Assembly (NCBI RefSeq): GCF_014779555.2
Contig: NZ_CP094357.1
Location: forward strand, 4,898,001-4,962,000
Source of the DNA: Lysobacter capsici
GTDB lineage: Bacteria > Pseudomonadota > Gammaproteobacteria > Xanthomonadales > Xanthomonadaceae
Direction: 5' to 3'
DNA: 64,000 bases
Below, in pieces: positions 43,624 to 59,875 of the stretch. How positions within the stretch are numbered: position 1 is the first letter of the stretch; each line of letters starts with the position of its first letter. The notes below the pieces were generated by a model. The model made no database searches. It was not told the DNA's origin and saw nothing but the letters and a program-made list of their open reading frames with translations. The position numbers were made by a program, and so were the translations under genes.

Positions 43624-43627
43624 AGGC

Positions 43628-46417
43628 TCAGTCGCTCTCTTCGCGTTCGAAGCGCAAACCGCGTTCGTCGCGCACCACGCCTTCCATCGCCGCGAACGCG
43701 GCTTCGTCCAGCGCCGGTTCCAGCGGCGGCAGTTCGGCGCGCTGCGCCACCGCCGCGACCACGCCCTCGGGCTGGAAGTGGATGATCTGCTTCCACGAGC
43801 GCGCCAGCGCGTCGGCGAACACCAGCACCAGATCGCCGGCCTGGCCCATGCGCAGCGCGGCGTCGACCGCCTGCTGCTCGTCGGGAATGATCGAGATCGC
43901 CGTTTCCGCCACGCCCAGCGCCAGCAGCTTCTTGGCGATGATCCGCGGCACTTCGTCGCCGTCGCGGCCGCGCAGCGAATCGTCGCGGCGGCAGATGTAG
44001 TGATCGAAGCGGCCGGCGACCGCTTCGGCGATCGCATGCAGGTCCTCGTCGCGGCGATCGCCGGGACCGGCCAGGACCACGATGCGGCGGCCCGGCACGT
44101 CCAGGCGCTGAGCCAGGTCCGACATCACCCCGACCGCGTGGGCGTTGTGGCCGTAGTCCATCACCACCTTGAACGGATGTTCGTTGTAGACGTTCATCCG
44201 GCCCGGGGCCTGGAAGAAGGTCGTATCGAACGTGCGCAGGCCGTGGCGGATCGCATCGAGCTTGATCCCAAGCGAGAACGCCATCGCCGCGGCGACCATC
44301 GCGTTCTGCACGTTGTGCAGCGCGCGGCCTTCCATCGTCGCCGGGATCAGATGCGTCCACAGCAGCGGGATATGGCTGCCCTTGTCGTACAAGGTGATCA
44401 TGTGGCCGTTGATGCCGGCCTCCAGCGCGCAGGCGCGGCCGCCGGCGCGGATGTGCTCGCGCACCAGCGCGTGCGAGGGGTTCATGGTGACGTAGCAGAT
44501 CACCTTGGCGTCGGTGTAGGCCGACATCTTCAGCACGTGCGGATCGTCGGCATTGAGCACCGCGCAATCGGTGGCCACTTCGACCACCACCCGCTTGATC
44601 TCGGCCAGTTGTTCGAGCGTGTCGATGCCCTTCAGGCCGAGGTGATCGGACTGGATGTTGAGCACCGCGCCGACGTTGACCTCGGACACGCCCATGCCGG
44701 CGCGCAGCAGGCCGCCGCGCGCGGTTTCCAGTACCGCCATGTCGACGTGCGGGTCCGACAGCACCATGCGCGCGGACACCGGGCCGGTCATGTCGCCCTC
44801 TACGGTGCGCTGGCCGTCGATGTAGACGCCGTCGGTGGTGGTCAGGCCCGGGGTGTAGCCGCCCATCTTGGTGATGTGGGCGAGCATGCGCGCGGTGGTG
44901 GTCTTGCCGTTGGTGCCGGTGATCGCGGCGATCGGCACGCGCGAGGGCGCGCCGGGCGCGAACAGCATGTCGATGACCGGGCCGGCGGCGTCGCGCGGCG
45001 TGCCTTCGCTGGGCGCGACATGCATGCGGAAGCCGGGCGCGGCGTTGATCTCGCAGATGCCGCCGCCGATGTTCTTGTAGCTCTCGGCGATGTTGGGCGA
45101 GATGAAATCCACGCCGCCCACGTCCAGGCCGATCGCGAGCACCGCGCGCACCGCCATGTCGCGGTTATCGGGATGGATGATGTCGGTGACGTCGGTCGCG
45201 GTGCCGCCGGTGGACAGGTTGGCGGTGGAACGCAGGTAGACGATTTCGCCGGGCTTCGGGATCGACGCGGCGGTGTAGCCGACCCGCTCCATCATCAGCT
45301 CGGCCTGCGAATCCAGCTCCAGGCGCGTGAGCACCTTCTCGTGGCCGACGCCGCGGCGCGGGTCCTGATTCACCAGTTCGACCAGTTCGGCGATGCTGCG
45401 CAAGCCGTCGCCGACCACGTGGCCGGGCGTGCGCTTGGTCGCGGCGATCAGTTCGCCGTTGATCACCAGCAGGCGATGGTCGTCGCCGCCGACGAAGGTC
45501 TCGACGATCACCGAACGCGAATGCTCGCGCGCGGCCTCGAAACCGGCGCGCACGTCCTCGTCGCTGGAAATATCGATGGTGATGCCGCGGCCGTGGTTGC
45601 CGTTGTACGGCTTGGTCACGACCGAGCCTCCGAGCTTCTTCGCCGCGCGGATCGCGCCGCTGGAATCGGTGACCAACTCCTGTCGCGGCACCGGCAAGCC
45701 GAGCGAAGCGAGAATCTTGTTGGTCTCTTCCTTGTCGCTGGCCAACTCCACCGCGATGTGCGAAGTCCGCCCCGTCACCGTGGCCTGGATGCGCTGCTGA
45801 TACTTGCCGTGCCCGAACTGGATCAGCGACTGGTTATTGAGCCGCAGCCACGGAATATTGCGTTCCTCGGCCGCGCGCACCAGCGAAGCCGTCGACGGCC
45901 CGAGCGCGCGGCGCTGCGCGTAGCGGATGAAGCCGTCGCGCGCGCTTTCCCATTCGAAGTCCGCCGGCACGCTGCCGGCCGGGCGAATCTCCTCGGGCAG
46001 CAGCGAACACAACAGCTTGATGCCGAGTTCGCCCGCGGCGATGCCTTCCTCACGCTGCGCGTATTCGTACACCACCGAGTACACGCCGGGGCGGTCGTCG
46101 CTGACGCTGCGGGTCTTGCCGAAGGTGACGTTCTCGCCGGCGACGTTCTGCAATTCGATCGCGACGTGTTCGAGCACGTGGCCGAGCCAGGTGCCTTCGT
46201 CCTCGCGCATGCGCCGGACGAAACCGCCGGGTTCGCGGTAGGAGCAGCCGTGTTCGGCCAATCCGGGCAGCGCTTCGACCAGCCCGTCGATGAAGGCCGA
46301 TCCGAGACGCGCGGTCGGCCAGGCTTCCAGTGCCTGCAGGTCTAACTCCAGGCGTATGACCGGAAAGTGCGCATACAACGAAGGGCCGACATAAACGGAG
46401 CGATCGAGAATGCGCAT
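43628..46417 (-). CDS. cphA: cyanophycin synthetase
   Basis: A 929-residue protein with the full CphA order. An N-terminal domain ('HVLEHVAIELQNVAGENV') leads to the ATP-grasp domain at about 215-480 ('SVVTKPYNGNHGRGITIDI', 'VVGDGLRSIAELVE', 'GGICEINAAPGFRMH'). The Mur-ligase domain begins with 'ITGTNGKTTTARMLAHI' near 497-513 and continues through 'LETARGGLLRAGMGV', 'NIQSDHLGLKGIDTLEQLA' and 'MDYGHNAHAVGVM'. It polymerises Asp and Arg into multi-L-arginyl-poly-L-aspartate, an intracellular nitrogen store. cphB lies 159 bp upstream and a second ligase 4 nt downstream. Length is slightly above the usual 870-900. Confidence 0.96.
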   Translation of the reverse strand: MRILDRSVYVGPSLYAHFPVIRLELDLQALEAWPTARLGSAFIDGLVEALPGLAEHGCSYREPGGFVRRMREDEGTWLGHVLEHVAIELQNVAGENVTFGKTRSVSDDRPGVYSVVYEYAQREEGIAAGELGIKLLCSLLPEEIRPAGSVPADFEWESARDGFIRYAQRRALGPSTASLVRAAEERNIPWLRLNNQSLIQFGHGKYQQRIQATVTGRTSHIAVELASDKEETNKILASLGLPVPRQELVTDSSGAIRAAKKLGGSVVTKPYNGNHGRGITIDISSDEDVRAGFEAAREHSRSVIVETFVGGDDHRLLVINGELIAATKRTPGHVVGDGLRSIAELVELVNQDPRRGVGHEKVLTRLELDSQAELMMERVGYTAASIPKPGEIVYLRSTANLSTGGTATDVTDIIHPDNRDMAVRAVLAIGLDVGGVDFISPNIAESYKNIGGGICEINAAPGFRMHVAPSEGTPRDAAGPVIDMLFAPGAPSRVPIAAITGTNGKTTTARMLAHITKMGGYTPGLTTTDGVYIDGQRTVEGDMTGPVSARMVLSDPHVDMAVLETARGGLLRAGMGVSEVNVGAVLNIQSDHLGLKGIDTLEQLAEIKRVVVEVATDCAVLNADDPHVLKMSAYTDAKVICYVTMNPSHALVREHIRAGGRACALEAGINGHMITLYDKGSHIPLLWTHLIPATMEGRALHNVQNAMVAAAMAFSLGIKLDAIRHGLRTFDTTFFQAPGRMNVYNEHPFKVVMDYGHNAHAVGVMSDLAQRLDVPGRRIVVLAGPGDRRDEDLHAIAEAVAGRFDHYICRRDDSLRGRDGDEVPRIIAKKLLALGVAETAISIIPDEQQAVDAALRMGQAGDLVLVFADALARSWKQIIHFQPEGVVAAVAQRAELPPLEPALDEAAFAAMEGVVRDERGLRFEREESD

Positions 46418-46576
46418 GCAGAACCTCAGTTCATGGTGATTTGGGTCGAGTGGGTTTAAGTCGCGGGAATTGAATGGGACGGATTTGGGCGGAACAGATT
46501 TAGCCGGACGGATGTAAGTGCAGCGTAGTGAAGACGGTCGGACTCAAGCGGCGCGCACTCGTTCACGCCGACCGCG

Positions 46577-47422
46577 TCATCCCGACTTGGACACCGCCAG
46601 CGAACCGGCCGATGCCTTGCGGGTATTGAGATTGAACGTAGCGCCTTTGGTCAGGATGTGCACGCCCAGGCCGAGCAGGCAGACCGGTTCGTCCTCGCCG
46701 ACCATGTGCATGGACGAGAACTGCAGGCCGTCGGCGTCGACCACGGTGACCGAGCCGCTGCCTTCGACCTCGATGGTGTTGTCCGGGCCGATGAAGGCCG
46801 CGGTGTCCTCGTCCAGGCCGATGCCGATCGCGAACGGGTTGTAGGCCAGCGCCGCGACCAGGCGGCCGAGGCGGTCGCGCTGGCGGAAATGCTGGTCGAT
46901 CACCACCCGGTTGGTCAGGCCCAGGCCCGGCGCCAGCCGCACGCTGTCGGCGCGCGGCGAGGAGCCCTCGGTGCCGAACGCGATCATGTGCTCGCTGAGG
47001 ATGCTCGCGCCCGCGCTGGTGCCGCCGACGGCCACACCGCGCGCGTTCTGCGCGCGGATCGCCTGCGCAATCGGCGTGCCACCGAGCATGGTGGAGATGC
47101 GCAATTGGTTACCGCCGGTGAAGAAAATACCGCTGGCCTGTTCGATCCGCTGGATCCGGTTGGGCTCGAAACAATCGCGGCGGGTATCGAAATCCATCGA
47201 TTCCACCCGGTTGGCGCCGAGCTCGGAGAACAGTTTTTCGTAGCGGTCGCCAGTGTCGGGCATGCGGCTGGCGGTGGGGATCACCACGATGTCGGCGCCG
47301 TCGCCGCCGCACAGATCCAGGAACCGCTGCAGAATCTTCGCTCCGTTTTCCTTGTCTTCCGCACCACCTATCGGAACGATCCAGCCCCGCTCTTCACCGT
47401 CGGGGATTCTGCTTGGCGACAT
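46577..47422 (-). CDS. cphB: cyanophycinase
   Basis: A 281-residue serine hydrolase of the S51 family. The nucleophile elbow is 'VGGTSAGASILSEHMI', and 'FFTGGNQLRISTMLGGT' and 'DQHFRQRDRLGRLV' are typical of CphB. It releases beta-Asp-Arg dipeptides from cyanophycin in the cytoplasm. The next upstream gene encodes the dipeptidase that would finish the process, and cphA is downstream, giving a synthesis-and-recovery module. Confidence 0.95.
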   Translation of the reverse strand: MSPSRIPDGEERGWIVPIGGAEDKENGAKILQRFLDLCGGDGADIVVIPTASRMPDTGDRYEKLFSELGANRVESMDFDTRRDCFEPNRIQRIEQASGIFFTGGNQLRISTMLGGTPIAQAIRAQNARGVAVGGTSAGASILSEHMIAFGTEGSSPRADSVRLAPGLGLTNRVVIDQHFRQRDRLGRLVAALAYNPFAIGIGLDEDTAAFIGPDNTIEVEGSGSVTVVDADGLQFSSMHMVGEDEPVCLLGLGVHILTKGATFNLNTRKASAGSLAVSKSG

Positions 47423-47551
47423 CCGTACGTACTCACTCTTGGTCGGGCTGGCTGCGCGCGAGGCGAAGCGAAAGCGGCTGGCCGCCGCATGGCGGCGGCG
47501 GCAGGAATTCAGCGGTGGGCCGGTCCGGTCGGGCTGCGAACGGATCGGGTA

Positions 47552-48757
47552 TCAGGTCTCAAAATTACCACGCCGCAGCACCGCGCCGTCGCGCAGATGC
47601 GCGCGGCCGGCGATGAACACGTCGTGCGCGGCGCCGTTTTCGTCCAGCGCGACCAGGTCGGCGTCGGCGCCGGCGGCGATCAGGCCCTTGCCGGGCAGGC
47701 GCAGCAGGCGGGCCGGATTGAGGGTGAACGCCGGCAGCGCGCGTTCCAGTTCGACCCCGCGCGCCAGCACCGCGTTCAGGCATTCGAGCAGCGCGCCCGA
47801 TTCGCCCACGCCCATGCCGCACATCCGCCCGTGCTCGTCGAAACAGGCCAGGCAGCCGCCGGCATCGGAGCTGACGCTGACCCGGTCGGCCGCCGCGCCG
47901 CTGTCGAGGTACTGGATCAGGGCGTCCTGCGCGGTCCAGGCGTCCTCGCCTTCTTCGACCGGGAAGGCGGTCAGGTCGATATGGCAGCCGCGCCGCGCCA
48001 GCTCGATCGCTTCGGCGAACAAGGCCTTGCGCCGGTTGACGTGGGTCGGGTTGAACACCCGCGCCGGCAGTTCGCTGGTATCGAGCGCCTGACGCACCAG
48101 TTCCAGCCCGCGCGGGCCGTCGCCCAGATGCAGGTGAACGATGCCGGCCTTGCCGGTCATCAGGCCGGCGACATGCGCCTCGGAGGCGAGCTTGAGCAGT
48201 TCGTCGAGGGTCGGCTGGCTGGAGCGATGGTCGCTGATCGCGACCTCGCCCACGCCGATCAGCGGCTCGATGAACACCACGTCGCCGCGCACGCTGCCGG
48301 TCAGGGTGGTCGGCGGCAGGTGGTAGCCGCCGCTGTAGCCCCAGGCGTTGAGGCCTTCCTCGCGCAGCGCGTAGATATTGGCGACCAGCTCGCGGGTGCC
48401 GCGCGCGAGGTCGTCGGTGCCGAGCAGGCCGACCACGCTGGTCACGCCGGCGCGGGTGTAGCGCGACAGCATCGGCGCCGGCACGCGGGTGCGAAAGCCC
48501 GCTTCGCCGCCGCCGCCGGTGACGTGGACGTGGCCGTCGATCAGGCCCGGGATCAGCCGCCGGCCCTGCAGGTCGATGGTCTCGACCGGCAGCGAGGCCG
48601 GCAGCTGCGGCGGGTCGATGCCCATCCACAGGATCTTGCCGCCGCCGAGCAGCAGGTTCTGCCGGCCGAGCGCCTGGGGCGCATACACATCGGCATTGCG
48701 GATCAGGCGCAGCGCGGGTTCGTCGGTCGGGCCTGCGGACATCGTCGGTTCACTCAT
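47552..48757 (-). CDS. iadA: beta-aspartyl (isoaspartyl) dipeptidase
   Basis: A 401-residue amidohydrolase from the ATG at 48757, which overlaps the upstream stop by 8 nt; an alternative ATG at 48742 would shorten it by 5. Metal-ligand motifs are 'LIDGHVHVTGGGGEAGF', 'GIVHLHLGDGPRG', 'VFNPTHVNRR' and 'SVSSDAGGCLACFDE'. 'GYSGGYHLPPTTLTGS' is characteristic of IadA. It cleaves beta-Asp-X dipeptides, including the beta-Asp-Arg released by cyanophycinase, giving free Asp and Arg. Confidence 0.93.
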   Translation of the reverse strand: MSEPTMSAGPTDEPALRLIRNADVYAPQALGRQNLLLGGGKILWMGIDPPQLPASLPVETIDLQGRRLIPGLIDGHVHVTGGGGEAGFRTRVPAPMLSRYTRAGVTSVVGLLGTDDLARGTRELVANIYALREEGLNAWGYSGGYHLPPTTLTGSVRGDVVFIEPLIGVGEVAISDHRSSQPTLDELLKLASEAHVAGLMTGKAGIVHLHLGDGPRGLELVRQALDTSELPARVFNPTHVNRRKALFAEAIELARRGCHIDLTAFPVEEGEDAWTAQDALIQYLDSGAAADRVSVSSDAGGCLACFDEHGRMCGMGVGESGALLECLNAVLARGVELERALPAFTLNPARLLRLPGKGLIAAGADADLVALDENGAAHDVFIAGRAHLRDGAVLRRGNFET

Positions 48758-49145
48758 GGCGGCGGCCGGGTTCGGCATCGCTCGATTGTGCCGTGTCGGC
48801 GCGAGCCGCGTCGCGACGCCAGCCATAGGCGCGTTCGACCCGGGCGACGCGCAATTCGAATTGCGCGTACCACTGCTTGCGGCCGCGCTCGCGGATCGCG
48901 GTGTGTTCGAGGTTGCGCTTCCAGGCCAGGATCGAGGCTTCGTCGGCCCAGTAGCTCACGGTGATGCCGAAGCCATCGCTGCCGCGGGTCGACTCCACGC
49001 CGAGGTAACCGGGCTGCTGCGCGGCCAGTTCGATCATGCGCTGCGCCGCTTCACCGTAGGCGGTGTCGCCTTCTTCGGTGCGCTGGGAGCTGAAGATCAC
49101 CGCGTAGTACGGAGGTTTGGGGAGGGTGGCGAAGCTGGCTGGCAT
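48750..49145 (-). CDS. antibiotic-biosynthesis-monooxygenase-like (ABM) domain protein
   Basis: A 131-residue protein from the ATG at 49145. The ABM fold shows as 'YYAVIFSSQRTEEG', 'MIELAAQQPGYLGVESTRG' and 'ITVSYWADEASILAWKRNLEH', with a conserved Trp. Such single-domain proteins are haem-degrading enzymes, quinone monooxygenases or unknown. The sequence upstream of the start is a C-tract repeat, so the longer frame to 49277 is rejected. Its stop overlaps iadA by 8 nt; a shared role is not evident. Confidence 0.8.
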   Translation of the reverse strand: MPASFATLPKPPYYAVIFSSQRTEEGDTAYGEAAQRMIELAAQQPGYLGVESTRGSDGFGITVSYWADEASILAWKRNLEHTAIRERGRKQWYAQFELRVARVERAYGWRRDAARADTAQSSDAEPGRRHE

Positions 49146-49196
49146 GGCTGGCTCGGGGGTTGGGGTCGGGTAGAGCGAAGGCTTAAGAGCTGAAAG

Positions 49197-49372
49197 CGAA
49201 TCCCCCCTGCCCCCCCTTTTGCAAAGGGGGGAAAAGCACGGGGTTGTAAAAATCGATACGCGATGCCGAATTTCCAACGTTCAAATCGCACACGAAAGAA
49301 GCCGCGCCTTCCGATCGCTTCGTCGGCATTCCCCCCTTTGTAAAAGGGGGGCTAGGGGGGATTCGCTTTTGC
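49197..49372. repeat. inverted pair of C-tract elements
   Basis: The left end reads gcgaatcccccctgcccccc, then ttttgcaaaggggggaaaagc (49195-49236). The right end is the inverted form, ccccctttgtaaaaggggggctaggggggattcgc (about 49330-49367). A second pair with the same ends lies at 62296-62560. The ends could pair into a long stem; this looks like a small non-coding mobile or REPIN-like unit. Confidence 0.82.
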
Positions 49373-49413
49373 TCCAAGACGTGCAGAACCCATCGCACCG
49401 AACTCACAGCAAA

Positions 49414-50448
49414 TCACCCCGCCGCCAACCGCCGAGTCAACGCAACAAACTCATCCAACTTAGCCCGCGCCGCGCCCGAGGCCAGCGCCTCACGCGCGCG
49501 CTCGATGCCCTGGGCGATGCTTTCGACCACCCCCGCCGCATACAGCGCCGCACCCGAATTCAAGGCCACGATCTCGCGCGGCAAGCCTTCGCGATTTTCC
49601 AGCGCCTGCAGCAGCAACACCTTCGACTCATCGGCATCGTTGACGCGCAGATTGCGGCTGGCCGCCATCGCGATGCCGAAATCCTCCGGATGCACTTCGT
49701 ATTCGCGCACCACCCCGTCGCGCAGTTCGCCGACCAGCGAACCGGCGCCGAGCGACAGCTCGTCCATGCCGTCGCGGCCCCACACCACCAGCGCGCGCTG
49801 CGCGCCGAGTTCCTGCAGCACGCGCACCTGGATGCCGACCAGGTCGGGATGGAACACGCCCATCAGGATGCTCGGCGCATCGGCCGGGTTGGTCAGCGGG
49901 CCGAGGATGTTGAACAAGGTGCGCACGCCCATCTCGCGCCGCACCGGCGCGACTACCTTCATCGCCGGGTGATGCACCGGCGCGAACATGAAACCGATCC
50001 CGGCCTGCTCGATGCACTGGCCGACCTGCTCGGGTTGCAGCTCGATCACCGCGCCCAAGGCTTCGAGCACATCCGCGCTGCCCGACTTCGACGACACACT
50101 GCGATTGCCGTGCTTGGCGACCTTGGCCCCGGCCGCGGCCACCACGAACATGCTCGCGGTGGAAATATTGAAGGTGTGCGCGCCGTCGCCGCCGGTGCCG
50201 ACGATGTCGACCAGATGGGTGCGATCGGCGACCTGCACCGGCCGCGCGAATTCGCGCAGCACCGTCGCCGCGCCGGCGATCTCGCCGATGGTTTCCTTCT
50301 TGACCCGCAAGCCGGTGAGGATCGCCGCGGTCATGGTCGGCGAGACTTCGCCGCGCATGATCGTGCGCATCAACTCGACCATTTCGTCGTGGAAGATTTC
50401 GCGGTGCTCGATGGTGCGTTGCAGGGCTTCTTGGGGCGTCATGGGCAT
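49414..50448 (-). CDS. trpD: anthranilate phosphoribosyltransferase
   Basis: A 344-residue protein. PRPP and anthranilate sites are seen in '[20 protein letters not shown]', '[21 protein letters not shown]' and '[21 protein letters not shown]'. Two nearby ATGs (50448 and 50442) are possible starts. It follows trpG by 43 nt, so trpG-trpD are one unit. The next trp gene, trpC, is about 7.6 kb further on, beyond the cyanophycin genes. Confidence 0.97.
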
Positions 50449-50491
50449 GGGTGCCTACTCGGGAGTCGGGATCGGGAATTCGGCGAAGCCG

Positions 50492-51073
50492 TCAACGCTC
50501 GAGGAAATTGCGCAGCAACGCGTGCCCGTGCTCGGTCTTGATCGATTCGGGATGGAACTGCACGCCCTCGACCGGATGCTCGCGATGGCGCAGGCCCATG
50601 ATCTCCTCGAAACGGCCGTCCTCGTATTCGGTCCACGCGGTGATTTCCAGGCTCTCGGGCAGGCTGTCGCGCGACACCACCAGCGAGTGATAGCGCGTGG
50701 CCTCGTAGGCGTCGGGCAAACCGGCGAACACGCCGCGGCCTTCGTGACGGATGTGCGAAGTCTTGCCGTGCATGATGTGCTTGGCGCGGATCACCTCGCC
50801 GCCATAGGCCTGGCCCAGGCTCTGATGGCCGAGGCAGACGCCGAAGATCGGCGTGTTCGGACCGAGCCGGCGGATCACCTCGAGCGATACGCCTGCGTTG
50901 TCGGGCGTGCTCGGACCGGGCGAAATCACGATGCGCTCGGGCGCGAGTCTTTCGATCTCCTCCACCGACAACTCGTCGTTGCGGATCACCCGAACCTCGG
51001 CGCCCAACGACTGCAGGTACTGCACGATGTTGTAGGTAAAGCTGTCGTAGTTGTCGATCATCAAAACGGACAT
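50492..51073 (-). CDS. trpG: anthranilate synthase component II, glutamine amidotransferase
   Basis: A 193-residue class-I amidotransferase. '[17 protein letters not shown]' opens it; the nucleophile Cys is in '[17 protein letters not shown]'; the His-Glu pair is in '[16 protein letters not shown]'. It gives ammonia to TrpE. It may also serve PabB, as in other bacteria where only one such subunit exists. The start lies within the 3' end of an out-of-frame ORF (51061-51471), itself tied to a Trp-rich leader. Confidence 0.96.
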
Positions 51074-51471
51074 GACGCGCCTCGAATGCGGGTGGTGCGT
51101 GGAGTGCCTGGACGACGCACGTCGCCGGAGGACGATCGTGAGATCGGTCCCGGCATCGTGCCTGCGAATGATTGCGCCGATTGCGACGCCGCCGCGCGGC
51201 GGCGGCCAGGGCCGCGCCCTCGCCGGCCGGACGCGGCCGCAAGCCCGCCATTATCGCGATTGCGAACGGGCCGGGGCAGTGACTGGGGGCGGGAATTGCC
51301 CGGATGGGCGGTCAGGGCCGGATCGGGCGAGGTCGGATCGGGCGAGGTCGGATCGGATGAAACCGGATCCGGTCGGCGCAGCGCGGTTGCGATCGGATCG
51401 GGCGCTCCCGCGACGGGAAGGCGCCGGCGGCGCTCAGCGGCCGCGGGGGTGGAACGATTGGGCGGGGTCAC
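51061..51471 (-). CDS. small Pro/Arg/Ser-rich ORF between the trp leader and trpG (uncertain)
   Basis: A 136-codon frame from the GTG at 51471 to a TGA at 51061-51063, which lies 8-10 nt inside trpG. It has an RBS-like gaggaa about 8 nt before the GTG. The product is low-complexity with a duplicated 'DPTSP' from two 15-bp tandem units (51321-51350), and resembles no family I know. Its value may be translational: ribosomes that load at the GTG would end at the trpG start. The GTG is at the same distance (106 nt) from its leader ATG as the trpE GTG is from its own leader. It may not make a functional protein. Confidence 0.4.
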
Positions 51472-51577
51472 GCAGGCATTCCTCGAAAGACGACGGCACG
51501 GGGACGGAGGCGGCACGCCACCATCGCCAGCCCTGGCCGGCCTTCGGGGAATTGTGCGGGATCGCGCGGAGCTTCAT
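51434..51577 (-). CDS. Trp-rich leader peptide upstream of trpG (47 codons)
   Basis: Starts at the ATG at 51577 and ends in TGA at 51434. Residues 17-20 are Trp-Arg-Trp-Trp, in 'GQGWRWWRAA'. It has the same length as the leader before trpE, shares 'PH' at 7-8, 'RD' at 36-37 and a final Gly-Arg, and has tggcgatggtggc in the DNA of both. The 12-mer agcagttacagt precedes the ATG by 6 nt. It overlaps the start of the next ORF out of frame. Such Trp-codon runs are typical of trp attenuators. It is a regulatory ORF, not a stable protein. Confidence 0.75.
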   Translation of the reverse strand: MKLRAIPHNSPKAGQGWRWWRAASVPVPSSFEECLRDPAQSFHPRGR

Positions 51578-51583
51578 GGGCCT

Positions 51584-51595
51584 ACTGTAACTGCT
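51584..51595 (-). promoter_or_regulatory. shared 12-mer agcagttacagt before the trpG leader
   Basis: On the minus strand it is identical to the 12-mer before the trpE leader (57138-57149). Its last six bases, tacagt, fit a -10 box, and the leader ATG starts 6 nt later, so the transcript may begin at or next to the ATG (leaderless). No clear -35 box was found. A repressor operator is the alternative reading. Confidence 0.45.
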
Positions 51596-51660
51596 GGATC
51601 GGGGTTTGTGCGACCGCGGGCGCGGCGGCTCTTCGCCTCGCCGCACTGTCCCGTATCCGA

Positions 51661-51770
51661 CTGTAGGAGCTGCGCAAGCTGCGACCGCGCCAACACAACT
51701 ACGGCGCCACTACGGAATTTGCGCGGCAGTTGCATTGACGCGGTCGCGGCTCGCGCCGCTCCTACAGTCA
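51661..51770. repeat. REP doublet (REPIN-like)
   Basis: tgtaggagctgcgcaagctg (51661) faces its inverted form gcggctcgcgccgctcctac (ending about 51770). It lies between the histidine kinase stop and the trpG leader, and belongs to the same family as the array at 54538-55483. Confidence 0.82.
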
Positions 51771-51786
51771 GAACCGCACCGACGGC

Positions 51787-53145
51787 TCAATCCGCCGTCG
51801 CCCCCAACGTCACCCTGACCCGCAACCCCGGATGGTTGTCGAGCAAGGCGATATGCCCGCCGTGACGATGCAGGATCGCCCGCACCAGGCTCATGCCCAG
51901 GCCGGTGCCCGGCGAGCCGCGATGGGTCTCCAGGCGCTGGAAGCGATCGAACACCCGCGCCCGGTCCTCGGCCGGAATGCCCGGGCCGCGATCGTCGATC
52001 TGCAGCACGATCGCCTGCCGCTCGCGCTGCAGGCCCAGCCGCACCTCGGTATCGGCCGGCGCGTACTTGACCGCGTTGTCGAGCAGATTGACCAGCATCT
52101 GGAACAACTGGTCGGCATCGCCGCGCACCCGCGCGCCGCCCGGCGAAGGCAGTTCGGTGGTCAGGGCGATGCCGCGTTCGGCGGCGATCGGCGTGTACAG
52201 TTCGGCCGCATCGCGGACCAGGTCGGCCAGGTCGAGTTCGGGCTCGTCGTGCACCGGCGGCTGCGCCTCGATCCGCGCCAGGCGCAGCAGCGCGCCGAAC
52301 GAATGCAGCAGTTGATCGGTTTCGCCGATCGCCGCGTCCAGACGCGCGGCGGCGTCGGCGTCCTGTTCGCGCTGACGAGCCTCCTCCAGGCGATTGCGCA
52401 GCCGGGTCAGCGGCGTGCGCAGGTCGTGGGCGATGTGGTCGGTGGCGTGACGCACGCCGCCGAGCAATTCCTCGATCCGGTCGAGCATGGCGTTGAAGCG
52501 TCGCGCGAGCCGGTCGAAGGCATCGTCGCTGCCGTCCAGGCGCGCGCGCAGGTCCAGCTCGCCGCCGCCGACGCGCTCGGCGGTGTTGTCCAAATGCCGC
52601 AGCCGGCGCGAGACCCAGCGCGAGGTCATCCAGCCGATCAACGCGCCCAGGCTGGCCGCGACCAGCAGCGCCGCCAATGCCGTGCGCAGCATCAGGCCCA
52701 GGAAGCGGTCCTGGCTGCGGGTGCGGGTGCCGGTCAACAAGGTGGTGCCGTCGGGCAGGCGCAGCAGTTGCGCGACCACGCGCAGATCGCCGTCGCCGCT
52801 GTGTTCGGTGAATTCGATCCAGTGCGCGCCGCGACGATGGTTCGGCACCGGCGTGTTGCCGGCGACCACGCGGCCGTCGGGCGCGGTCAGCGCGTAGACC
52901 GCATCGGGATCGTCGTCGGAGGCGATGCGGTCGCGCAGCTCGGCCAGCAATGCCGCGCCGCCGTCGTCCTGGTACATCTCGACCAGCCCGGCCGCGTCGA
53001 CCTTGACTAGTTCGCGCGCGTCCTGGATCAGCATCGCCGACACCGCGTAATGCACGCCGATGCCGAGCAATACGAACGCGAACAAGAACGATGCGGTGAC
53101 CGCGAGCGCGAGACGCGCACTGGTCGAGCGCGGCATCAGGCGCAT
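51787..53145 (-). CDS. sensor histidine kinase
   Basis: A 452-residue inner-membrane protein. Two transmembrane helices (about 12-33 and 152-172) flank a periplasmic sensor of about 115 residues. A HAMP domain follows ('RWVSRRLRHLDNTAERVGGGE'), then the H box 'IAHDLRTPLTRLRNRLEEA', N box 'LVNLLDNAVKYAP', G1 'DRGPGIPAEDRARVFDRF' and G2 'GTGLGMSLV'. It is 34 nt downstream of an OmpR-type regulator on the same strand, so the two form one system. Architecture resembles the QseC/TctE-like group; the signal is unknown. Confidence 0.93.
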   Translation of the reverse strand: MRLMPRSTSARLALAVTASFLFAFVLLGIGVHYAVSAMLIQDARELVKVDAAGLVEMYQDDGGAALLAELRDRIASDDDPDAVYALTAPDGRVVAGNTPVPNHRRGAHWIEFTEHSGDGDLRVVAQLLRLPDGTTLLTGTRTRSQDRFLGLMLRTALAALLVAASLGALIGWMTSRWVSRRLRHLDNTAERVGGGELDLRARLDGSDDAFDRLARRFNAMLDRIEELLGGVRHATDHIAHDLRTPLTRLRNRLEEARQREQDADAAARLDAAIGETDQLLHSFGALLRLARIEAQPPVHDEPELDLADLVRDAAELYTPIAAERGIALTTELPSPGGARVRGDADQLFQMLVNLLDNAVKYAPADTEVRLGLQRERQAIVLQIDDRGPGIPAEDRARVFDRFQRLETHRGSPGTGLGMSLVRAILHRHGGHIALLDNHPGLRVRVTLGATAD

Positions 53146-53179
53146 GCGCGACGCCCGCCTGCGGTGATGCGCGGGCGAC

Positions 53180-53854
53180 TCATGCGCCCAACCGGTAACC
53201 GGCGCCGCGCACGGTGTGCAGCAACGGCCGCGGATAGCCCTGGTCGATCTTCTGCCGCAGGCGGCTGATATGCACGTCGATGACGTTGGTCTGCGGATCG
53301 AAGTGATAGTCCCACACCGCTTCGAGCAGCATGGTCCGGGTGACCACGCGTTCGGCCTGGCGCATCAGGTATTCGAGCAGGCGGAACTCGCGCGGCTGCA
53401 GTTCGATGCGCTTGTCGCCGCGGCGCGCTTCGCGGCTGAGCAGGTCGAGTTCGAGATCGGCCACGCGCAGGCGAGTCGGTTCGCTGCCGCCGGCGCTGCC
53501 GCGGCGCAGGATGCTGTCCAGGCGCGCGCTCAGTTCGGCGTAGGCGAACGGCTTGACCAGGTAATCGTCGGCGCCGGCGCGCAGGCCTTCGACCCGGTGG
53601 TCGACTTCGCCCAGCGCGGTCAGCAGCAGCACCGGCGTGCGGTTGCCGGCGCCGCGCAATGTCTGCAACAGCACCAGGCCGTCGAGCGCGGGCAGCATGC
53701 GGTCGAGCACGATCGCATCGAAGCTTTCGGTGGTGGCCAGGAACAAGCCGTCGCGGCCGTTGTCGGCGTGATCGACGGTATGGCCGTCTTCGCGCAGGCC
53801 CTTGGCGATGAAGCTGGCGGTGTGGGGATCGTCTTCGACGAGCAGGACGCGCAT
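53180..53854 (-). CDS. OmpR-family response regulator
   Basis: A 224-residue protein from the ATG at 53854. The receiver has 'VLLVEDDPHTASFIAKGL' and phospho-acceptor Asp in 'DAIVLDRMLPALDGL', with 'LLLTALGEVDHRVEGL' and 'DDYLVKPFAYAEL'. The winged-helix DNA-binding domain is 'RRGDKRIELQPREFRLLEYL' to 'SRLRQKIDQGYPRPLLHTVRG'. It is co-transcribed with the downstream histidine kinase. Target genes are not visible. Confidence 0.95.
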   Translation of the reverse strand: MRVLLVEDDPHTASFIAKGLREDGHTVDHADNGRDGLFLATTESFDAIVLDRMLPALDGLVLLQTLRGAGNRTPVLLLTALGEVDHRVEGLRAGADDYLVKPFAYAELSARLDSILRRGSAGGSEPTRLRVADLELDLLSREARRGDKRIELQPREFRLLEYLMRQAERVVTRTMLLEAVWDYHFDPQTNVIDVHISRLRQKIDQGYPRPLLHTVRGAGYRLGA

Positions 53855-54158
53855 GCCGACTCCGCGATCGCGACGGTGCATGAAGGAAAGGACGCCGACA
53901 GGATACCGCGCTGGCCGGGAACCACGGCGATGGCCGGCGCCGGGCCGCGGCGGTGGTCGCGCCGGGGAAAAATCGCCCGCCGGACGGACCGGCGGGGCAA
54001 GCCGAACACACTAGCGAAAGCGGAACACGGGATCACACGATCGTTCGACCGTCGTCGCGGTCGCTTCAATAAAGGACACCCCGCCGGCTCGCGCCGGCGG
54101 GGTGTCGGGGACCCACGCCGACGATGCGTGGGGCTCGGGGGAGCAGGCTCGCGAAGGA
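53855..54158. other. intergenic region upstream of the response regulator
   Basis: About 300 bp; it holds the terminator at 54069-54105 for the small secreted protein and presumably the promoter of the two-component operon. No gene is seen. Confidence 0.5.
54069..54105 (-). terminator. terminator after the small Lys/Ala-rich protein
   Basis: A perfect 13-bp stem (acaccccgccggc / gccggcggggtgt, 54076-54105) with a 4-nt loop, followed on the minus strand by cctttatt. Confidence 0.82.
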
Positions 54159-54350
54159 TCAGTTCGAGGCAGGCGCCGCCGCTTCGGCGGCCGGCGCGGC
54201 CTTGGCCGACTTCTTGGCCTTGTGATGCTTGTGCTTGACGGTCTTGGCGGCCGGCGCGGCGGTACCGGCGGTGGTCGCCGGCGCGGCGGCGAACGCGGAA
54301 CCGGCGAACGCGGTCAGGGCGACGGCAATCAGGGCGTTGCGAACGTTCAT
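54159..54350 (-). CDS. small secreted Ala/Lys/His-rich protein
   Basis: A 63-residue protein from the ATG at 54350. A signal peptide ('NALIAVALTAFAGSAFA') is followed by a short basic mature part with 'TVKHKHHKAKKSAKAAP', ending in 'PAASN'-like residues. This general type (signal peptide plus Ala/Lys/His tail) is common in Xanthomonadaceae and might act as a periplasmic cation- or acid-buffering peptide; the role is unknown. A terminator follows about 55 nt after the stop. Confidence 0.65.
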   Translation of the reverse strand: MNVRNALIAVALTAFAGSAFAAAPATTAGTAAPAAKTVKHKHHKAKKSAKAAPAAEAAAPASN

Positions 54351-55533
54351 GTGAGGCTCCAGGGGATTCGAGGGGGTGGGAGGTTTGGCCGGTGGGGTGG
54401 GCCCCATCGCGAAGCCAGATTGCGCCCCGGCGCTTGGCCCCGAGCTTTCCGCTGGATGAACTATTTTTAATGTGGCGCGGCGATTGCGTCGTGCTGATCG
54501 CTGCGACATCCGACCGACGTCACAGCTTTATCGGCGCGGTCGCGGCTTGCGCCGCTCCTGCAGTCGCCATCCCAACATCCTTCGCAACTTACGGCCGCCC
54601 CCTGTAAGAGCTGCGCAAGCTGCGACCGCGAATTGGGGATAACCAGCGCAACACGACGTGAGCGATCAACGCGACTTCCAGCCAACCTCGCGGCCGCAAT
54701 GACGCGGTCGCGGCTTGCGCCGCTCCTACAGTCGCCATCCCAACATCCGTCGCAACTGACGGCCGCTCCCTGTAGGAGCTGCGCGAGCTGCGACCGCGAA
54801 TTGGCGATTACCGGCGCAACACGACGTGAGCGATCAACGCGACTTCCAGCCAACGTCGCGGCCGCAGTGGCGCGGTCGCGGCTTGCGCCGCTCCTACAGC
54901 AGCCATCCCAACATCCGTCGCAACTGACGGCCGCTCCCTGTAGGAGCTGCGCGAGCTGCGACCGCGAATTGGCGATTACCGGCGCAATACGACGTGAGCG
55001 ATCAACGCGACTTCCAGCCAACGTCGCGGCCGCAGTGGCGCAGTCGCGGCTTACGCCGCTCCTACATTCGTTCTCCCAACATCCGTCGTAACTGACGGCC
55101 GCTCCCTGTAGGAGCTGCGCGAGCTGCGACCGCTCCTACAGTCGCCACCCCAACATCCGTCGCGACTGACGGCCACCCCTGTAGGAGCTGCGTAAGCTGC
55201 GACCGCGAATTGGCGATTACCGGCGTAACACGACGTGAGCGATCAACGCGACCTCCAGCCAACGTCGCGGCCGCAGTGGCGCGGTCGCGGCTTACGCCGC
55301 TCCTACAGTCGCTCTCCCAACATCCGTCGTAACTGACGGCCGCTCCCATGTAGGAGCTGCGCAAGCTGCGACCGCGAATTGACGATTACCGGCGCAACAC
55401 GATGTGAGCGATCAACGCGACTTCCAGCCAACGTCGAGATCGCAATGACGCGGTCGCGGCTTACGCCGCTCCTACAGTCGGTATCGGCAATCGGTCGCAA
55501 CAGCGACGCGAACGCCGCCGTCGCCCGCGGCGG
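54351..55533. other. 1.2-kb non-coding region, mostly tandem repeats
   Basis: The right part (54538-55483) is a repeat array. The left part contains the promoter side of the small secreted protein, with an AT-rich aactatttttaatg near 54459. Frames along the array are repeat translations, not genes. Confidence 0.75.
54538..55483. repeat. tandem array of about 168-bp units with REP ends
   Basis: Unit starts (tgta[a/g]gagctgcg) fall at 54603, 54771, 54939, 55108, 55180 and 55349: spacing 168, 168, 169, 72 and 169. Each full unit runs through gcgaattgg..gattacc, cgacgtgagcgatcaacgcg and ttccagccaac to an inverted REP end (gccgctcctacag), then gccatcccaacatccgtcgc. The fourth unit is cut. The regular spacing suggests unequal crossing-over or replication slippage. 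Confidence 0.92.
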
Positions 55534-57024
55534 CTACAGCCCCCGCGCTGCCTCGGCCACCGCGCGGAACAAGGCGCGGCCCTTGCTCATCGTCTCTTCC
55601 CACTCTTTCTGCGGGTCGGAGTCGTAGACGATGCCGGCGCCGGCCTGCACGTGCAGGCGGCCGTCCTGGATCACCGCGGTGCGGATCGCGATCGCGGTGT
55701 CGGCGTCGCCGTGCCAGCCGATGTAGCCGACCGCGCCGGAATACACGTTGCGCTTGACCGGTTCGAATTCGCGGATGACTTCCAGCGCGCGGATCTTCGG
55801 CGCGCCGCTGACGGTGCCGGCCGGGAACGTCGCGCGCAGCACATCGGCGTAGCTCATGTCCGGCTTCAGCTGGCCGGTGACTTCGCTGACGATGTGCATG
55901 ACGTGGCTGTAGCGTTCGATGCCGAACTGCTCGCCGACTTCGACCGTGCCCGGCAGCGACACCCGGCCGACGTCGTTGCGGCCCAGGTCGATCAGCATCA
56001 GGTGCTCGGCGCGTTCCTTCGGATCGGCCAGCAATTCGATTTCCAGCGCGTTGTCTTCCTCGGCCGTCTTGCCGCGCGGACGGGTGCCGGCGATCGGACG
56101 CACCGTGACTTCGCCATCCTGAAGGCGCACCAGGATTTCCGGCGAGGAACCGACCACCTGGGTGCCGCCGACATCGAGAAAATACATGTACGGCGACGGG
56201 TTCAACGCGCGCAGCGCGCGGTACACGTCGACCGGGCGCGCCTTGAACGGCACGCTGAGCCGCTGCGACAGCACCACCTGGAAAATATCGCCAGCGCGGA
56301 TCAGTTCCTTGGCTTTCTCGACCGCATCGATGAAGCCGTCGCGGGTGAAACCGGAAACGAAATCGCCTTCGTCCAGGCCGGCCGGATCGAGCGTTTCCGG
56401 ATAACCGGCGCCGCCGATGCGCAGCCGATGGACCAGTTGATCGAGCCGGCGATTGGCGCGCGCGAACGCCTGCGGCTCGCGCGGATCGGCGTGCACGATC
56501 AGGTACAGCCGGCCCTTGAGGTTGTCGAACACCGCCAGCTCTTCGCTCTGCATCAGCAGGATGTCGGGCGTGCCCAGTTCGTCGGGCTTGTAGCTGCCGT
56601 CGGGCTGCGGACCGGCCAGGCGCGGCTCGATGTACTGGATGCATTCGAACCCGAACCAGCCGACCAGGCCGCCGGCGAAACCCGGCAGGCCGTCGATCTT
56701 GGGCACGCGGTATTCGGTGCGCAGGCGTTCGACTTCGGCGAAGGGGTCTTCGACCTGGCGGCTGTCGACCAGTTCGCCGTGTTCGGACACGAACAAGGTG
56801 TGGCCGGCGAACGCGTACACGCGCTGCGCGGGCAGGCCGATGATCGAGTAACGGCCGAAGCGTTCGCCGCCCTCGACCGATTCGAACAAATAGGTGTGCG
56901 GGCCGTCGGCGAGCTTGAGATAGACCGACAGCGGCGTGTCGAGGTCGGACAGCACCTCGCGCACGACGGGAATACGGGTGTAGCCGTTAGCGGCCTGTTG
57001 CTGGAAGAGTTCGTGCGAGATCAC
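55534..57024 (-). CDS. trpE: anthranilate synthase component I
   Basis: A 496-residue chorismate-utilising enzyme from a GTG at 57024, with aaggaac 8-9 nt upstream. The N-terminal regulatory motif is 'YLFESVEGGERFGRYSIIG' (LFES in place of LLES). The catalytic part has 'VVLSQRLSVPFKA', 'IAGTRPRGKTAEEDNALE', 'HLMLIDLGRNDVGRVS', 'TFPAGTVSGAPKIRALEVI' and 'QAGAGIVYDSDPQKEWEET'. It makes anthranilate from chorismate with TrpG. The GTG lies inside the leader ORF, out of frame, which is a strong hint of leader-dependent control. trpG is about 4.5 kb away. Confidence 0.96.
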   Translation of the reverse strand: MISHELFQQQAANGYTRIPVVREVLSDLDTPLSVYLKLADGPHTYLFESVEGGERFGRYSIIGLPAQRVYAFAGHTLFVSEHGELVDSRQVEDPFAEVERLRTEYRVPKIDGLPGFAGGLVGWFGFECIQYIEPRLAGPQPDGSYKPDELGTPDILLMQSEELAVFDNLKGRLYLIVHADPREPQAFARANRRLDQLVHRLRIGGAGYPETLDPAGLDEGDFVSGFTRDGFIDAVEKAKELIRAGDIFQVVLSQRLSVPFKARPVDVYRALRALNPSPYMYFLDVGGTQVVGSSPEILVRLQDGEVTVRPIAGTRPRGKTAEEDNALEIELLADPKERAEHLMLIDLGRNDVGRVSLPGTVEVGEQFGIERYSHVMHIVSEVTGQLKPDMSYADVLRATFPAGTVSGAPKIRALEVIREFEPVKRNVYSGAVGYIGWHGDADTAIAIRTAVIQDGRLHVQAGAGIVYDSDPQKEWEETMSKGRALFRAVAEAARGL

Positions 57025-57130
57025 GCGGCGGTTCCTTCATGGACGAGTGGGCAGGAGCGAGGATGGCTTGCGGCCACCATCGCCAACCCACGTCGGCGCA
57101 AAAGGAATGCGGGTTCGCCCAGGCTTTCAT
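56987..57130 (-). CDS. Trp-rich leader peptide upstream of and overlapping trpE (47 codons)
   Basis: Starts at the ATG at 57130 and stops at TAA 56987-56989, 38 nt inside trpE but in another frame. Trp occurs at position 4 and in 'VGWRWWPQA' (16, 18, 19). The sequence ttcctt at codons 9-10 is complementary to the trpE ribosome-binding aaggaa, so a hairpin could hide the start until a ribosome moves through or stalls. Paired with the identical-length leader before trpG. Stalling at the Trp run would leave the trpE start about 50 nt downstream uncovered, whereas free movement would sweep over it. Confidence 0.78.
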   Translation of the reverse strand: MKAWANPHSFCADVGWRWWPQAILAPAHSSMKEPPRDLARTLPATGR

Positions 57131-57137
57131 GGCGCTC

Positions 57138-57149
57138 ACTGTAACTGCT
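57138..57149 (-). promoter_or_regulatory. shared 12-mer agcagttacagt before the trpE leader
   Basis: Identical to 51584-51595. The tacagt part would be a -10 box placing the transcript start 7 nt on, at the leader ATG. The site lies just after the yegS stop region (57178), so the trpE promoter probably lies within the yegS 3' end. Confidence 0.45.
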
Positions 57150-57177
57150 TCGCCGACCGTGCGCGACGGTCCGGCGC

Positions 57178-58155
57178 CTAGCGGTCGGACTCGGTCGCGA
57201 GCGCCCCCGGCAACGCCTGCGCCGCGCTAGCCGACAGCAGCGGGCAGTCCGCCGGCAGGTGCATGCGCAGCCGCGCCGGCACGCAGTCGATGCGGAAGTG
57301 ATGCGCGTGGACCGGTTCGCCGTCGAGGTTGAGTGTCAGCCCCTGCGGCGAATCGATTTCGACGTATTTCAGTTGCGCGCGCGCGGCGACGCGGTCGAGC
57401 GCGGCATGCTTGCCTTCGGTCAGCAGGGTGCGCACGGTCGCGCCGACTTCGCCCGACAACTCCGGGACCACGGTCACGTCGAGCAGGCCGTCGTCGACCA
57501 GCGCATCCGGACACAGCGCCTGACCGCCGCCGGCCTGCTTGCCGTTGCCGATGCCCAGGGCGATGAAGTCGCCTTCCCACTCGAAGCCGTCGCCGTGCAG
57601 GCGCGCGCGCATCGGCTCGATCTTGCCGAGCTTGGAAATACCGGTGACCAAGTACGCCAGTCCACCCAGCATTTTCTTGAGCCCCGCATCGGTCTCGATC
57701 GTCACCTGCGTGCCGAACCCGCCGCTGGCCAGATTGGCGGCCCAATGCAACCCGTCGGGCGCCTCCAGCCGGATCAGGTCGATCGGCCGTGGCGCCTGCC
57801 GATCGATCAGGTCCAGCGCCTGGGCCGGATCGGTCGGGATCAGCGCGGCGCTGGCGAAATCGTTGGCGGTGCCCAGCGGGACCAGGCCCAACGAGGGCAA
57901 CACGTCGGCCGATTCGTCGCGGTGCGCGAGCGTGGTCGCCACTTCGCTGAGGGTGCCGTCGCCGCCGGCCGCGATGATGGTGGCGACGCCGTCGGCGATC
58001 GCCTCGGACACGTAGCGCTCGGCGTCGCCGCTTTCCCAGGTGACCCGCACGTCGAGGACGATGCCGCGGTCGCGCATGGCGGCGACGGCGTCGCGCAGGG
58101 CATCGTCGCCGGCGGACTTGCCGTTGAGGATCAATCGCCAGCGGGGTTTGGGCAT
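57178..58155 (-). CDS. yegS: lipid kinase of the YegS/diacylglycerol kinase family
   Basis: A 325-residue protein. The nucleotide-binding motif is '[18 protein letters not shown]' (GGDGT), with '[14 protein letters not shown]', '[12 protein letters not shown]' and '[20 protein letters not shown]'. YegS phosphorylates phosphatidylglycerol or a related lipid in the cytoplasm or at the membrane. Its stop is 47 bp upstream of the trpE leader ATG on the same strand, so read-through into trp is possible. Confidence 0.93.
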
Positions 58156-58264
58156 GGGGTCGGGGGTCCGTGGAGGAGTCGCGAGGCTAGCAGCGCCGCG
58201 CGCAAGGCAAGTGAAATGCGGATACCGCGAAGTGTGTCACACACCTGTCATCGTTCATCCGGAA

Positions 58265-58348
58265 TATAAGAGGCCATATCAGGGACGACGGGCGGAGGCT
58301 GGATTGCCTCCAAATATTCCAGACGCGGGCCGAAAGGCCCGCGTTTTT
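58265..58348 (+). ncRNA. candidate small RNA ending in a strong terminator
   Basis: The strong terminator cgcgggcc-gaaa-ggcccgcg-ttttt (58324-58348) has no coding gene in front of it on the + strand. A tataag box lies at 58265-58270, about 55 nt before the hairpin, and a Clp-like half site (cgcga-N6-tcaca, 58226-58241) just upstream. This is the layout of a short Clp-controlled transcript. Start site and existence are inferred; it may also be a stray terminator for read-through. Confidence 0.35.
58324..58348 (+). terminator. strong hairpin terminator with GAAA loop
   Basis: The 8-bp GC-rich stem cgcgggcc / ggcccgcg with a gaaa loop is followed by tttttcgtttt. It reads on the + strand, opposite in direction to yegS. 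Confidence 0.85.
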
Positions 58349-58511
58349 CGTTTTGGAATGGCGGCTCTACAGCCCATGCAGGTTGCCCCACCTCTGGCCC
58401 CTGCCCGCTGCCCGCCGCCTCCTAGGCAGAGCTCAGCGATGAAATCGTTGGCATCCTCGCCTAGCCGAGGCTCCGCTGAGCCCATCGCTCTGGCTCCGTC
58501 TTCAACCTAAG

Positions 58512-58577
58512 CCTTGCCCTTTTGCCCTTTTGCCCTTTTGCTCTTTTGCTCTTTTGCTCTTCGCTCTTCGCTTTGAG
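58512..58577. repeat. run of octamers cccttttg / ctcttttg
   Basis: Three cccttttg and several ctcttttg units pass into ctcttcg copies. A pyrimidine-rich simple repeat with no coding role seen. Confidence 0.85.
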
Positions 58578-58594
58578 CATGAAGTCGCGCCTAC

Positions 58595-58830
58595 CCACCA
58601 GCGCTGCGAGGCTTGTAACTCGCGTTAGCAAAAGGACACCCGAAGGGGCGGCGCACATGGATGTGCGCCGTGCGCCACCGGGACAGGATGTCCCGTGTGG
58701 CGCATGCCCGCGCAAGCACCGGACGCGCGGGCCCTTGATTCACAACAAAGCATTTTTCTTTGGTTACCTTTCTTTTGTTGCTTTAGACAAAAGAAAGTGA
58801 CCCGCCGCTTCAGCGGCGGAAGCCTTTGAT
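58595..58830. repeat. copy 2 of the 240-bp interspersed element
   Basis: In the same orientation as the copy at 28985-29235. It keeps cgctgcgaggcttgtaactc, ggcgcacatggatgtgcgcc, ggacaggatgtcccgtgtgg and catttttctttggttacctt, then ttttgttgctttagacaaaa. A frame across it reads 'DVPCGACPRKHRTRGPLI' then 'AFFFGYLSF'. Confidence 0.85.
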
Positions 58831-58894
58831 CCTGCTTGCAGCTTTAAAGGCTTCAAGCTTTGAAGCTTTTAAGCCAGAGGCAAGATCAACAGCT

Positions 58895-59140
58895 TTCGTC
58901 CGCAAGCGGCCGAGTTACTTTCTTTTGTCAAAAGCGACAAAAGAAAGGTAACCAAAGAAAAACTCTTTTCTTTGAATCAAAGGCCCGCAAGTGCGGTGCA
59001 GGCGCGGGCACGCGCCACACGGGACATCCTTGTCCCGGTGGCGCGCGACGCGCATCCATGCGCGTCGTCCTTCGGGTGTGCTTTTGTTCTCGCGAGACAG
59101 CGGCTTCGCAGCGCTGGATGAACTGCGCGACTTCAAGCCC
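58895..59140. repeat. copy 3 (inverted) of the 240-bp interspersed element
   Basis: Reverse-complement orientation to copy 2, about 65 bp away, so the two could pair as a very long stem. The minus-strand frame reads 'DVPCGACPRLHRTCGPLI' then 'EFFFGYLSFVAFDK', matching copy 2 at protein level despite DNA differences. Confidence 0.85.
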
Positions 59141-59162
59141 AAGCAAAGCGACATGACCTCCC

Positions 59163-59262
59163 TGTAGGAGCGGCGCAAGCCGCGACCGCGGAAATACAAC
59201 TGCGACGCAGGTTACGACGTCGGCGTCATGGCGCGGTCGCGGCTTGCGCCGCTCCTACAGGA
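59163..59262. repeat. REP doublet (REPIN-like)
   Basis: tgtaggagcggcgcaagccg at 59163 faces its inverted form cggcttgcgccgctcctaca at 59242-59261, with about 60 bp between. Same family as the array near 55 kb. Confidence 0.85.
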
Positions 59263-59851: not shown

Positions 59852-59875
59852 CGTCGCGCCCTTGTCGGAATGGGT

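Follow-up and report, generated by a model that had tools for sequence, protein, structure and literature searches.

Trp-codon leaders before trpE and trpG of Lysobacter capsici: candidate translational attenuators of one family, with a putative relay ORF to trpG

In the E. coli trp leader, Trp codons of a leader peptide lie paired in a hairpin arm, and in translational attenuators of the erm and cat type, a ribosome that stalls within a leader ORF exposes the ribosome-binding site of the gene that follows. Proteobacterial attenuators were reportedly the subject of a comparative study in 2004. We found no description of the leader reported here in the literature searched, most subscription journals lying outside the reach of that search. 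As in the E. coli trp type, it is a short leader ORF with codons for the product amino acid before a biosynthetic gene; unlike in E. coli, the leaders in our DNA come without a terminator-like site, and one of them overlaps trpE. In the mechanism we propose, a stall in the leader would open the next ribosome-binding site, as in erm/cat, with uncharged tRNA-Trp, and not a drug, as the presumed signal. ermC is named in the accessible part of PMC2965389.

The nearest amino-acid case among the systems compared is the LEU element before leuA of Actinobacteria (PMC1262725), which, in the portion of the report available, also combines codons for the product amino acid in a leader ORF with pairing to the biosynthetic gene's ribosome-binding site. 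There, however, the regulatory codons themselves pair with the Shine-Dalgarno (SD) sequence, while here this role would fall to a distinct stretch that lies 5' of the Trp codons, and the second copy here would act through a relay. The trpL gene of Sinorhizobium meliloti (PMC7298713) is similarly a Trp leader whose transcript begins at its ATG, but it works via a transcription terminator, and the available text of that paper describes no relay. A relay is known from Mycobacterium tuberculosis, where the uPPE2 uORF, located between a B12 riboswitch and ppe2 and called a relay by its authors, links a sensor to a gene that needs the uORF translated (PMC11260477, as far as its accessible part goes). 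In that excerpt the sensor is a riboswitch and the overlap is AUGA, whereas here the sensor would be a Trp-codon leader and the relay appears sequence-neutral, with 82–136 codons within the genus and a length that changes in triplets.

The DNA studied is a 64,000-nucleotide stretch (the window) of the 6.24 Mb Lysobacter capsici genome; the trp genes, leaders and control elements described below lie on its minus strand. The genes trpE (57024-55534; Pfam PF00425 and PF04715) and trpG-trpD (51073-49414) are 4.5 kb apart with other genes in between, trpG (50492..51073; Pfam PF00117, 1.1e-60) encoding a glutamine amidotransferase and trpD (49414..50448) matching PF00591 and PF02885. We suggest that the leaders in front of trpE and trpG are probably tryptophan-sensing translational attenuators of one family, the trpG copy driving a sequence-neutral relay to the gene.

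The trpE leader ORF (56987..57130) and the trpG leader ORF (51434..51577) both have 47 codons and a WRWW run encoded by TGG CGA TGG TGG, with the Trp codons at 16, 18 and 19 in the former and at 17, 19 and 20 in the latter. The initial annotation, made from the letters alone, had described two leaders of the same geometry, each with a GTG that lies 106 nt after the leader ATG and has a purine-rich ribosome-binding site, with Arg-Asp (RD) at codons 36-37 and with a final Gly-Arg, and all of this is true of both. In the trpE leader, the GTG at +106 (57024) is where trpE itself starts, and the leader therefore overlaps the initial 38 nt of trpE; the ribosome-binding site of trpE, read from the sequence, is AAGGAA (57032..57037). 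Since the WRWW positions differ by one codon between the leaders, the shared figure of 106 combines two one-codon differences. RD is the leader-frame reading of CGTGAYC, the controlled start. At trpG, the GTG (ribosome-binding site GAGGAAU, 51478..51484) opens the 136-codon relay ORF (51061..51471). This frame had been said to end 8-10 nt inside trpG; its last sense codon does occupy these nucleotides, but the stop lies at trpG nt 11-13, the TGA overlapping the codon for trpG Met-5 by 1 nt (TGATG).

A 12-mer, AGCAGTTACAGT, had been reported as identical before both leaders and does occur twice in the 64 kb (0.00 expected), but its identity is partly accidental, and relatives share less of it: the common part is TACAGT, TAAAGT or TATAGT, 6–8 nt 5' of the leader start. 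In the window this -10-like hexamer is TACAGT at 51584..51589, 6 nt 5' of the trpG leader ATG, and at 57138..57143, 7 nt 5' of the trpE leader. Over 91 leaders, selected by a filter that admitted spacings of 3–10 nt, the spacing was 6 nt in 49, 7 nt in 40 and 8 nt in 2, and a TCGC stands ~20 nt 5' of the hexamer in 28/28 trpG and 36/63 trpE leaders. A consensus promoter scan of both regions gave no sigma-70-like site, so it is from the hexamer and its spacing that a leaderless start is predicted, with transcription probably beginning at the start codon of the leader. The further suggestion of a duplicated control cassette fits the shared parts, but beyond WRWW the identity between the trpE and trpG leaders is weak (0.37 before and 0.39 after it, against 0.28–0.29 in a shifted control), and there is none upstream of the leader (0.30) or beyond the GTG (0.26).

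The strict leader pattern, which does not separate trpE leaders from trpG leaders, was found in 200 of 395 genomes of the family, and in a search across the order in 21/36 genomes of the same family and 0/164 of other families. All 20 genomes of the genus carry it, 17 of them twice. We compared trpE at 53 of 80 fetched loci plus the window, the nearest named TrpE relatives being Lysobacterales, including Lysobacter xinjiangensis at 87%. Among the compared loci, a leader precedes trpE in Xanthomonas, Stenotrophomonas, Pseudoxanthomonas, Lysobacter and several metagenome genomes, and none was seen before trpE in Rhodanobacter, Dyella, Dokdonella, Luteibacter, Luteimonas padinae and Arenimonas malthae. 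Our observations point to a Trp attenuator acting on translation in the family that includes Xanthomonas, Stenotrophomonas and Lysobacter. The leader ends at trpE +38 in 57 of 68 trpE leader loci (not deduplicated), at +14 in 1 and before trpE in 10, and the distance to the base aligned with trpE codon 1 is 91–145 nt in the overlapping leaders of the family. At L004, L008, L016, L118, L120, L150 and L176 the leader is short, closing a little beyond WRWW or WRWR without overlapping the next start, and such leaders would be a second form of the attenuator.

The trpG leader is present in 20/20 genus genomes, with 47 codons in 15, 46 in 1 and 53 in 4, and at 12 loci of at least three other genera: L116, L117, L146 and L147 in the first, L156, L171, L172, L181, L182, L183 and L185 in the second, and L176 in the third. 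It is thus not peculiar to this genome, a restriction that would have spoken against the initial annotation. The automatic leader filter missed L171, whose leader was identified by manual reading; L184 has the same leader and relay as L183, and L116, L148 and L187 represent one genome. No trpG leader was found at the remaining trpG loci that were passed through the strict -10 filter, a filter that also scores as leaderless some trpE loci at which a leader is seen by other means (e.g. L005, L011, L143 and L145), and the trpG leader may occur in more genera than these four. The 106-nt spacing at trpG, the constancy of which the initial annotation had named as a point to check, applies to all 20 genus leaders (19 with GTG, 1 with TTG) but varies elsewhere, with 106 nt in 6, 103 in 4 and 102 in 1 of 11 loci of other genera. 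In a metagenome-assembled genome, a very small ORF with GWRWW at its end was also seen ~1.4 kb before trpG (L005:13155).

In the mechanism that we propose, the part of the leader immediately 5' of the Trp codons would pair, around the Trp-codon hairpin, with the ribosome-binding site of the controlled start, and the start would be closed by default through this pairing. When charged tRNA-Trp is short, a ribosome would stall on WRWW and break both helices, and the start would open. At trpE the opened start would be that of trpE itself, and at trpG it would be the GTG of the relay ORF, the amino-acid sequence of which would be irrelevant. Relay ribosomes would then reach trpG, terminate at TGATG, and raise trpG translation (by reinitiation or unfolding) and/or shield a C-rich spacer from Rho. 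According to the accessible part of PMC12548453, coupling peaks between -4 and +3 nt and declines with overlap, so reinitiation would be expected to be weak at the annotated trpG ATG and strong at the Met codon of TGATG. A GAGG of trpG's own precedes its ATG in 13/17 aligned genus loci, and the relay may therefore raise rather than allow expression. We consider it fairly likely that the relay is a sequence-neutral translated spacer, an ORF of up to 136 codons kept open in one frame solely to carry leader-controlled ribosomes over ~400 nt. If so, a cassette built for trpE could be placed before trpG without rebuilding trpG's own start, which shows how a split pathway could bring both anthranilate synthase subunits under one signal.

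The relay can be described as a uORF that has start signals of its own and stays open as far as the following gene in 20/20 genus genomes and at 12/12 further loci, so that the GTG frame, the breaking of which in close relatives would have told against a relay, is intact throughout. Within the genus it runs open into trpG and has 82–136 codons (136 in the window); at the 12 non-genus loci, for which the start codon next in line behind a ribosome-binding site was used (at L171, by likeness to relatives), it ends at trpG +10 in 8, 3 nt before the ATG in 2 and at +98 in 1, and is fused to trpG in 1. The relay stop reads TGATG with an in-frame trpG Met in 19/20 genus genomes and 8/12 other loci, and in these 27/32 loci it sits 10–13 nt inside the annotated trpG (13 nt in the window). 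In G013 and L171 the relay is open but out of the usual frame. At L146 the relay is joined in frame with trpG, a fusion that could yield an N-terminally extended TrpG. In genome G174 (L116 and L187) the leader-controlled frame continues through a signal-peptide-like gene, which we take to be SIMPL-like, and which ends 3 nt before trpG.

The upkeep of the frame is apparent from its length changes. Leader and trpG lie 335–504 nt apart, a distance divisible by three in 19/20 genus genomes; on the trpG tree at least 15 changes of relay length are needed, only 1 of which alters the length modulo three (chance of ≤1 in 15, 2e-6 under a 1/3 null). As a control, the neighbouring gap between the stop of the upstream kinase gene and the leader was measured in the 17 genomes with a kinase match (the other three had none); it requires at least 14 length changes and 9 changes modulo three, versus 13 and 1 for the relay in the same 17 genomes. 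Triplet indels could arise from mechanical causes, but the 9 modulo-three changes in the control gap argue against a regional cause of this kind. Stop counts alone were rejected as proof of an open frame: over the 2056 codons in total from relay to trpG there are 0 stops in the relay frame versus 9 and 22 in the other two, yet this is too weak, a long frame in GC-rich DNA not being rare (0.12–0.75 per sequence), and length changes with the adjacent control were used instead. Part of the 22 off-frame stops is a conserved GATAAT element (51250..51255 in the window), present inside the relay region at 13/17 aligned genus loci, the window included, and at 6/7 loci of the second genus. It is possibly a second promoter that bypasses the relay and provides Trp-independent trpG expression.

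The likeliest alternative, which we regard as possible, keeps the leader part of the proposed mechanism but makes coupling at the trpG start secondary: an untranslated C-rich spacer would be a Rho loading site at which transcription ends before trpG, and translation of the relay would let the polymerase pass. In keeping with this, C exceeds G in 20/20 spacers (mean skew 0.16) versus 7/20 of the stretches 5' of the leader, the difference between C and G is ≤0.03 in trpG, the window region has no terminator-like site, and shielding needs just an open frame of free sequence. However, the skew is modest (0.07–0.26), and one particular frame together with a TGATG stop in 27/32 loci exceeds what shielding needs.

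The closed default state of the controlled start, as the attenuator reading requires it, was approached through RNA pairing. In the window, the segment complementary to the relay ribosome-binding site has its core (AUUCC) at 51548..51552 (-17.4 kcal/mol), and the segment complementary to the trpE ribosome-binding site is UUCCUUUU at 57100..57107. As the register of the SD/anti-SD pairing shifts between clades, fixed-column covariation on an alignment was not used, and a partner-swap test took its place, with identical anti-SD/SD pairs counted once (55 for trpE and 26 for trpG; L192, with no start at the expected place, was left out). At trpE, over 55 distinct pairs, the pairing energy was -13.85 kcal/mol with own and -10.89 with swapped partners (z -9.9, 0/1000 permutations); at trpG, over 26 pairs, it was -14.36 versus -11.17 kcal/mol (z -7.0, 0/1000 permutations). 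Controls with three other segments per gene gave z -1.7 to +1.3, with 44–891 of 1000 permutations at or below the own value; two of these six controls come close to 0.05, and an invalid energy (mean 3834) makes the one that lies upstream of the trpG transcript unusable. The partners at trpG include AUUCC/GGAAU (window), GAAAUCC/GGAUUUC (L098), AUUCCCG-type/CGGGAA (L094) and CAGUUCC/GGAACUG (L172 and L183). The family-wide result at trpE notwithstanding, the pairing of the window's own trpE leader, -10.7 kcal/mol, is about the shuffled mean (-10.3).

The Trp codons themselves lie in the 5' arm of a predicted hairpin (GAUGGUGGC / GCCUCCGUC; 51503..51525 in the window), in which 99.1% of cells are paired across 27 trpG leaders, versus 35–66% when slid, with no two-sided changes. 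Structure z-scores are -6.3 for the long trpE leaders (n = 57) and -5.2 for the trpG leaders (n = 30); by RNAalifold, 16 leaders of Xanthomonas, Stenotrophomonas and Pseudoxanthomonas were not significant (z -0.89) and 11 genus trpE leaders gave z -3.8. In free RNA the GGANN core of the ribosome-binding site is predicted to be closed, its unpaired probability being 0.12 at trpE and 0.05 at trpG; with the leader through WRWW removed this becomes 0.42 (up in 48/53) and 0.47 (up in 25/25), and with the part before WRWW shuffled 0.38 and 0.46. These figures should be weighed with the fact that GGANN was chosen only after the result for another core had been seen, for which trpE gave 0.36 and trpG went only from 0.20 to 0.26 (16/26). 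A ribosome-sized mask changed the predicted SD freedom from 0.07 to 0.19 at trpE and from 0.21 to 0.18 at trpG, and a block of the same size at leader nt 1-25 had the greater effect (0.27 and 0.29); the larger opening in the model needs the entire leader through WRWW kept unpaired. Covariation and predicted accessibility thus both point to a leader RNA that sequesters the ribosome-binding site belonging to the controlled start, and the closed default state is well supported in the model. Opening by a stalled ribosome is what we infer from this arrangement, a step weakened by the greater effect of the nt 1-25 block and by the weak trpE pairing in the window itself.

The uncertain SD release would not be needed if occlusion were the only mechanism, with a leader ribosome that crosses the downstream start blocking it, a stall at WRWW leaving it free, and no RNA pairing involved. 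The 57 of 68 trpE leader loci (not deduplicated) that end at trpE +38, and the genus trpG leaders, which cross the relay start, agree with this, but the SD/anti-SD covariation and the short leaders ending directly behind their Trp codons (10/68 trpE loci, and L176 at trpG) make it unlikely. Attenuation of transcription in the classical manner of the E. coli trp operon, by terminator and antiterminator, could draw on the Trp codons within a hairpin arm and on the structure z-scores of the long trpE and the trpG leaders given above. It is nonetheless very unlikely, as the long leaders overlap trpE and leave no room for a terminator, and the covarying partner is the ribosome-binding site. Moreover, the window, which alone was scanned, has 0 terminator-like sites in its two leader regions, and its leaders have no Rfam leader match: among the 17 matches listed for 48000-60000 at E≤5 there is no trp leader or T-box, and none overlaps either leader. 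That the trpG leader is a decaying, functionless copy and the open frame a product of chance in GC-rich DNA, where stop-free runs are common, is highly improbable in view of its retention in 20/20 genomes and three other genera, its covarying partners and its mostly triplet length changes.

Turning to the relay product, the relay body is unalignable between clades (17 loci). Beyond the leader overlap, one of 13 pairs had no substitution and the other 12 gave dN/dS of 0.29–2.46; in seven non-overlapping pairs (G000-G003, G001-G002, G006-G016, G008-G014, G004-G005, G017-G019 and G012-G018) the range was 0.63–2.46 with a median of 1.10, versus 0.02–0.18 for trpG. The GC content of the relay is flat over codon positions (0.65–0.82 at all three, 17 loci), unlike that of trpG (0.63–0.69, 0.39–0.42 and 0.87–0.96), and the 136-aa product has no homologue at E≤1e-3. 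A functional small protein is scarcely credible: the ORF is open in 20/20 genomes with a start codon and ribosome-binding site, and one close pair has dN/dS of 0.29, but values near 1 in most pairs, the flat GC, the unalignable body of varying length (82–136 codons) and the lack of a homologue at that threshold led us to reject it. It is the frame that appears to be kept, not the protein, which is expected of a relay but not of a protein gene; the translational role proposed for the extra ORF in the initial annotation is strengthened accordingly by this comparison of sequences. The relay belongs to a class of ORFs that the usual tests reject (dN/dS ~1, no homologue) although the frame looks selected, and users of gene finders and readers of Ribo-seq data should test frame upkeep separately from protein conservation.

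Elsewhere in the window, repeats resembling interspersed palindromic elements (TGTAGGAGC...GCGACCGCG) lie at 51640-51770, upstream of the trpG leader, and similar palindromic-type repeats occur, on visual inspection of the ORF list, in several copies downstream of trpE (~54470-55500). Two large ligase-like ORFs, a peptidase-like ORF and a dipeptidase-like ORF at 41785-48826 resemble genes of what we presume to be cyanophycin synthesis and breakdown.
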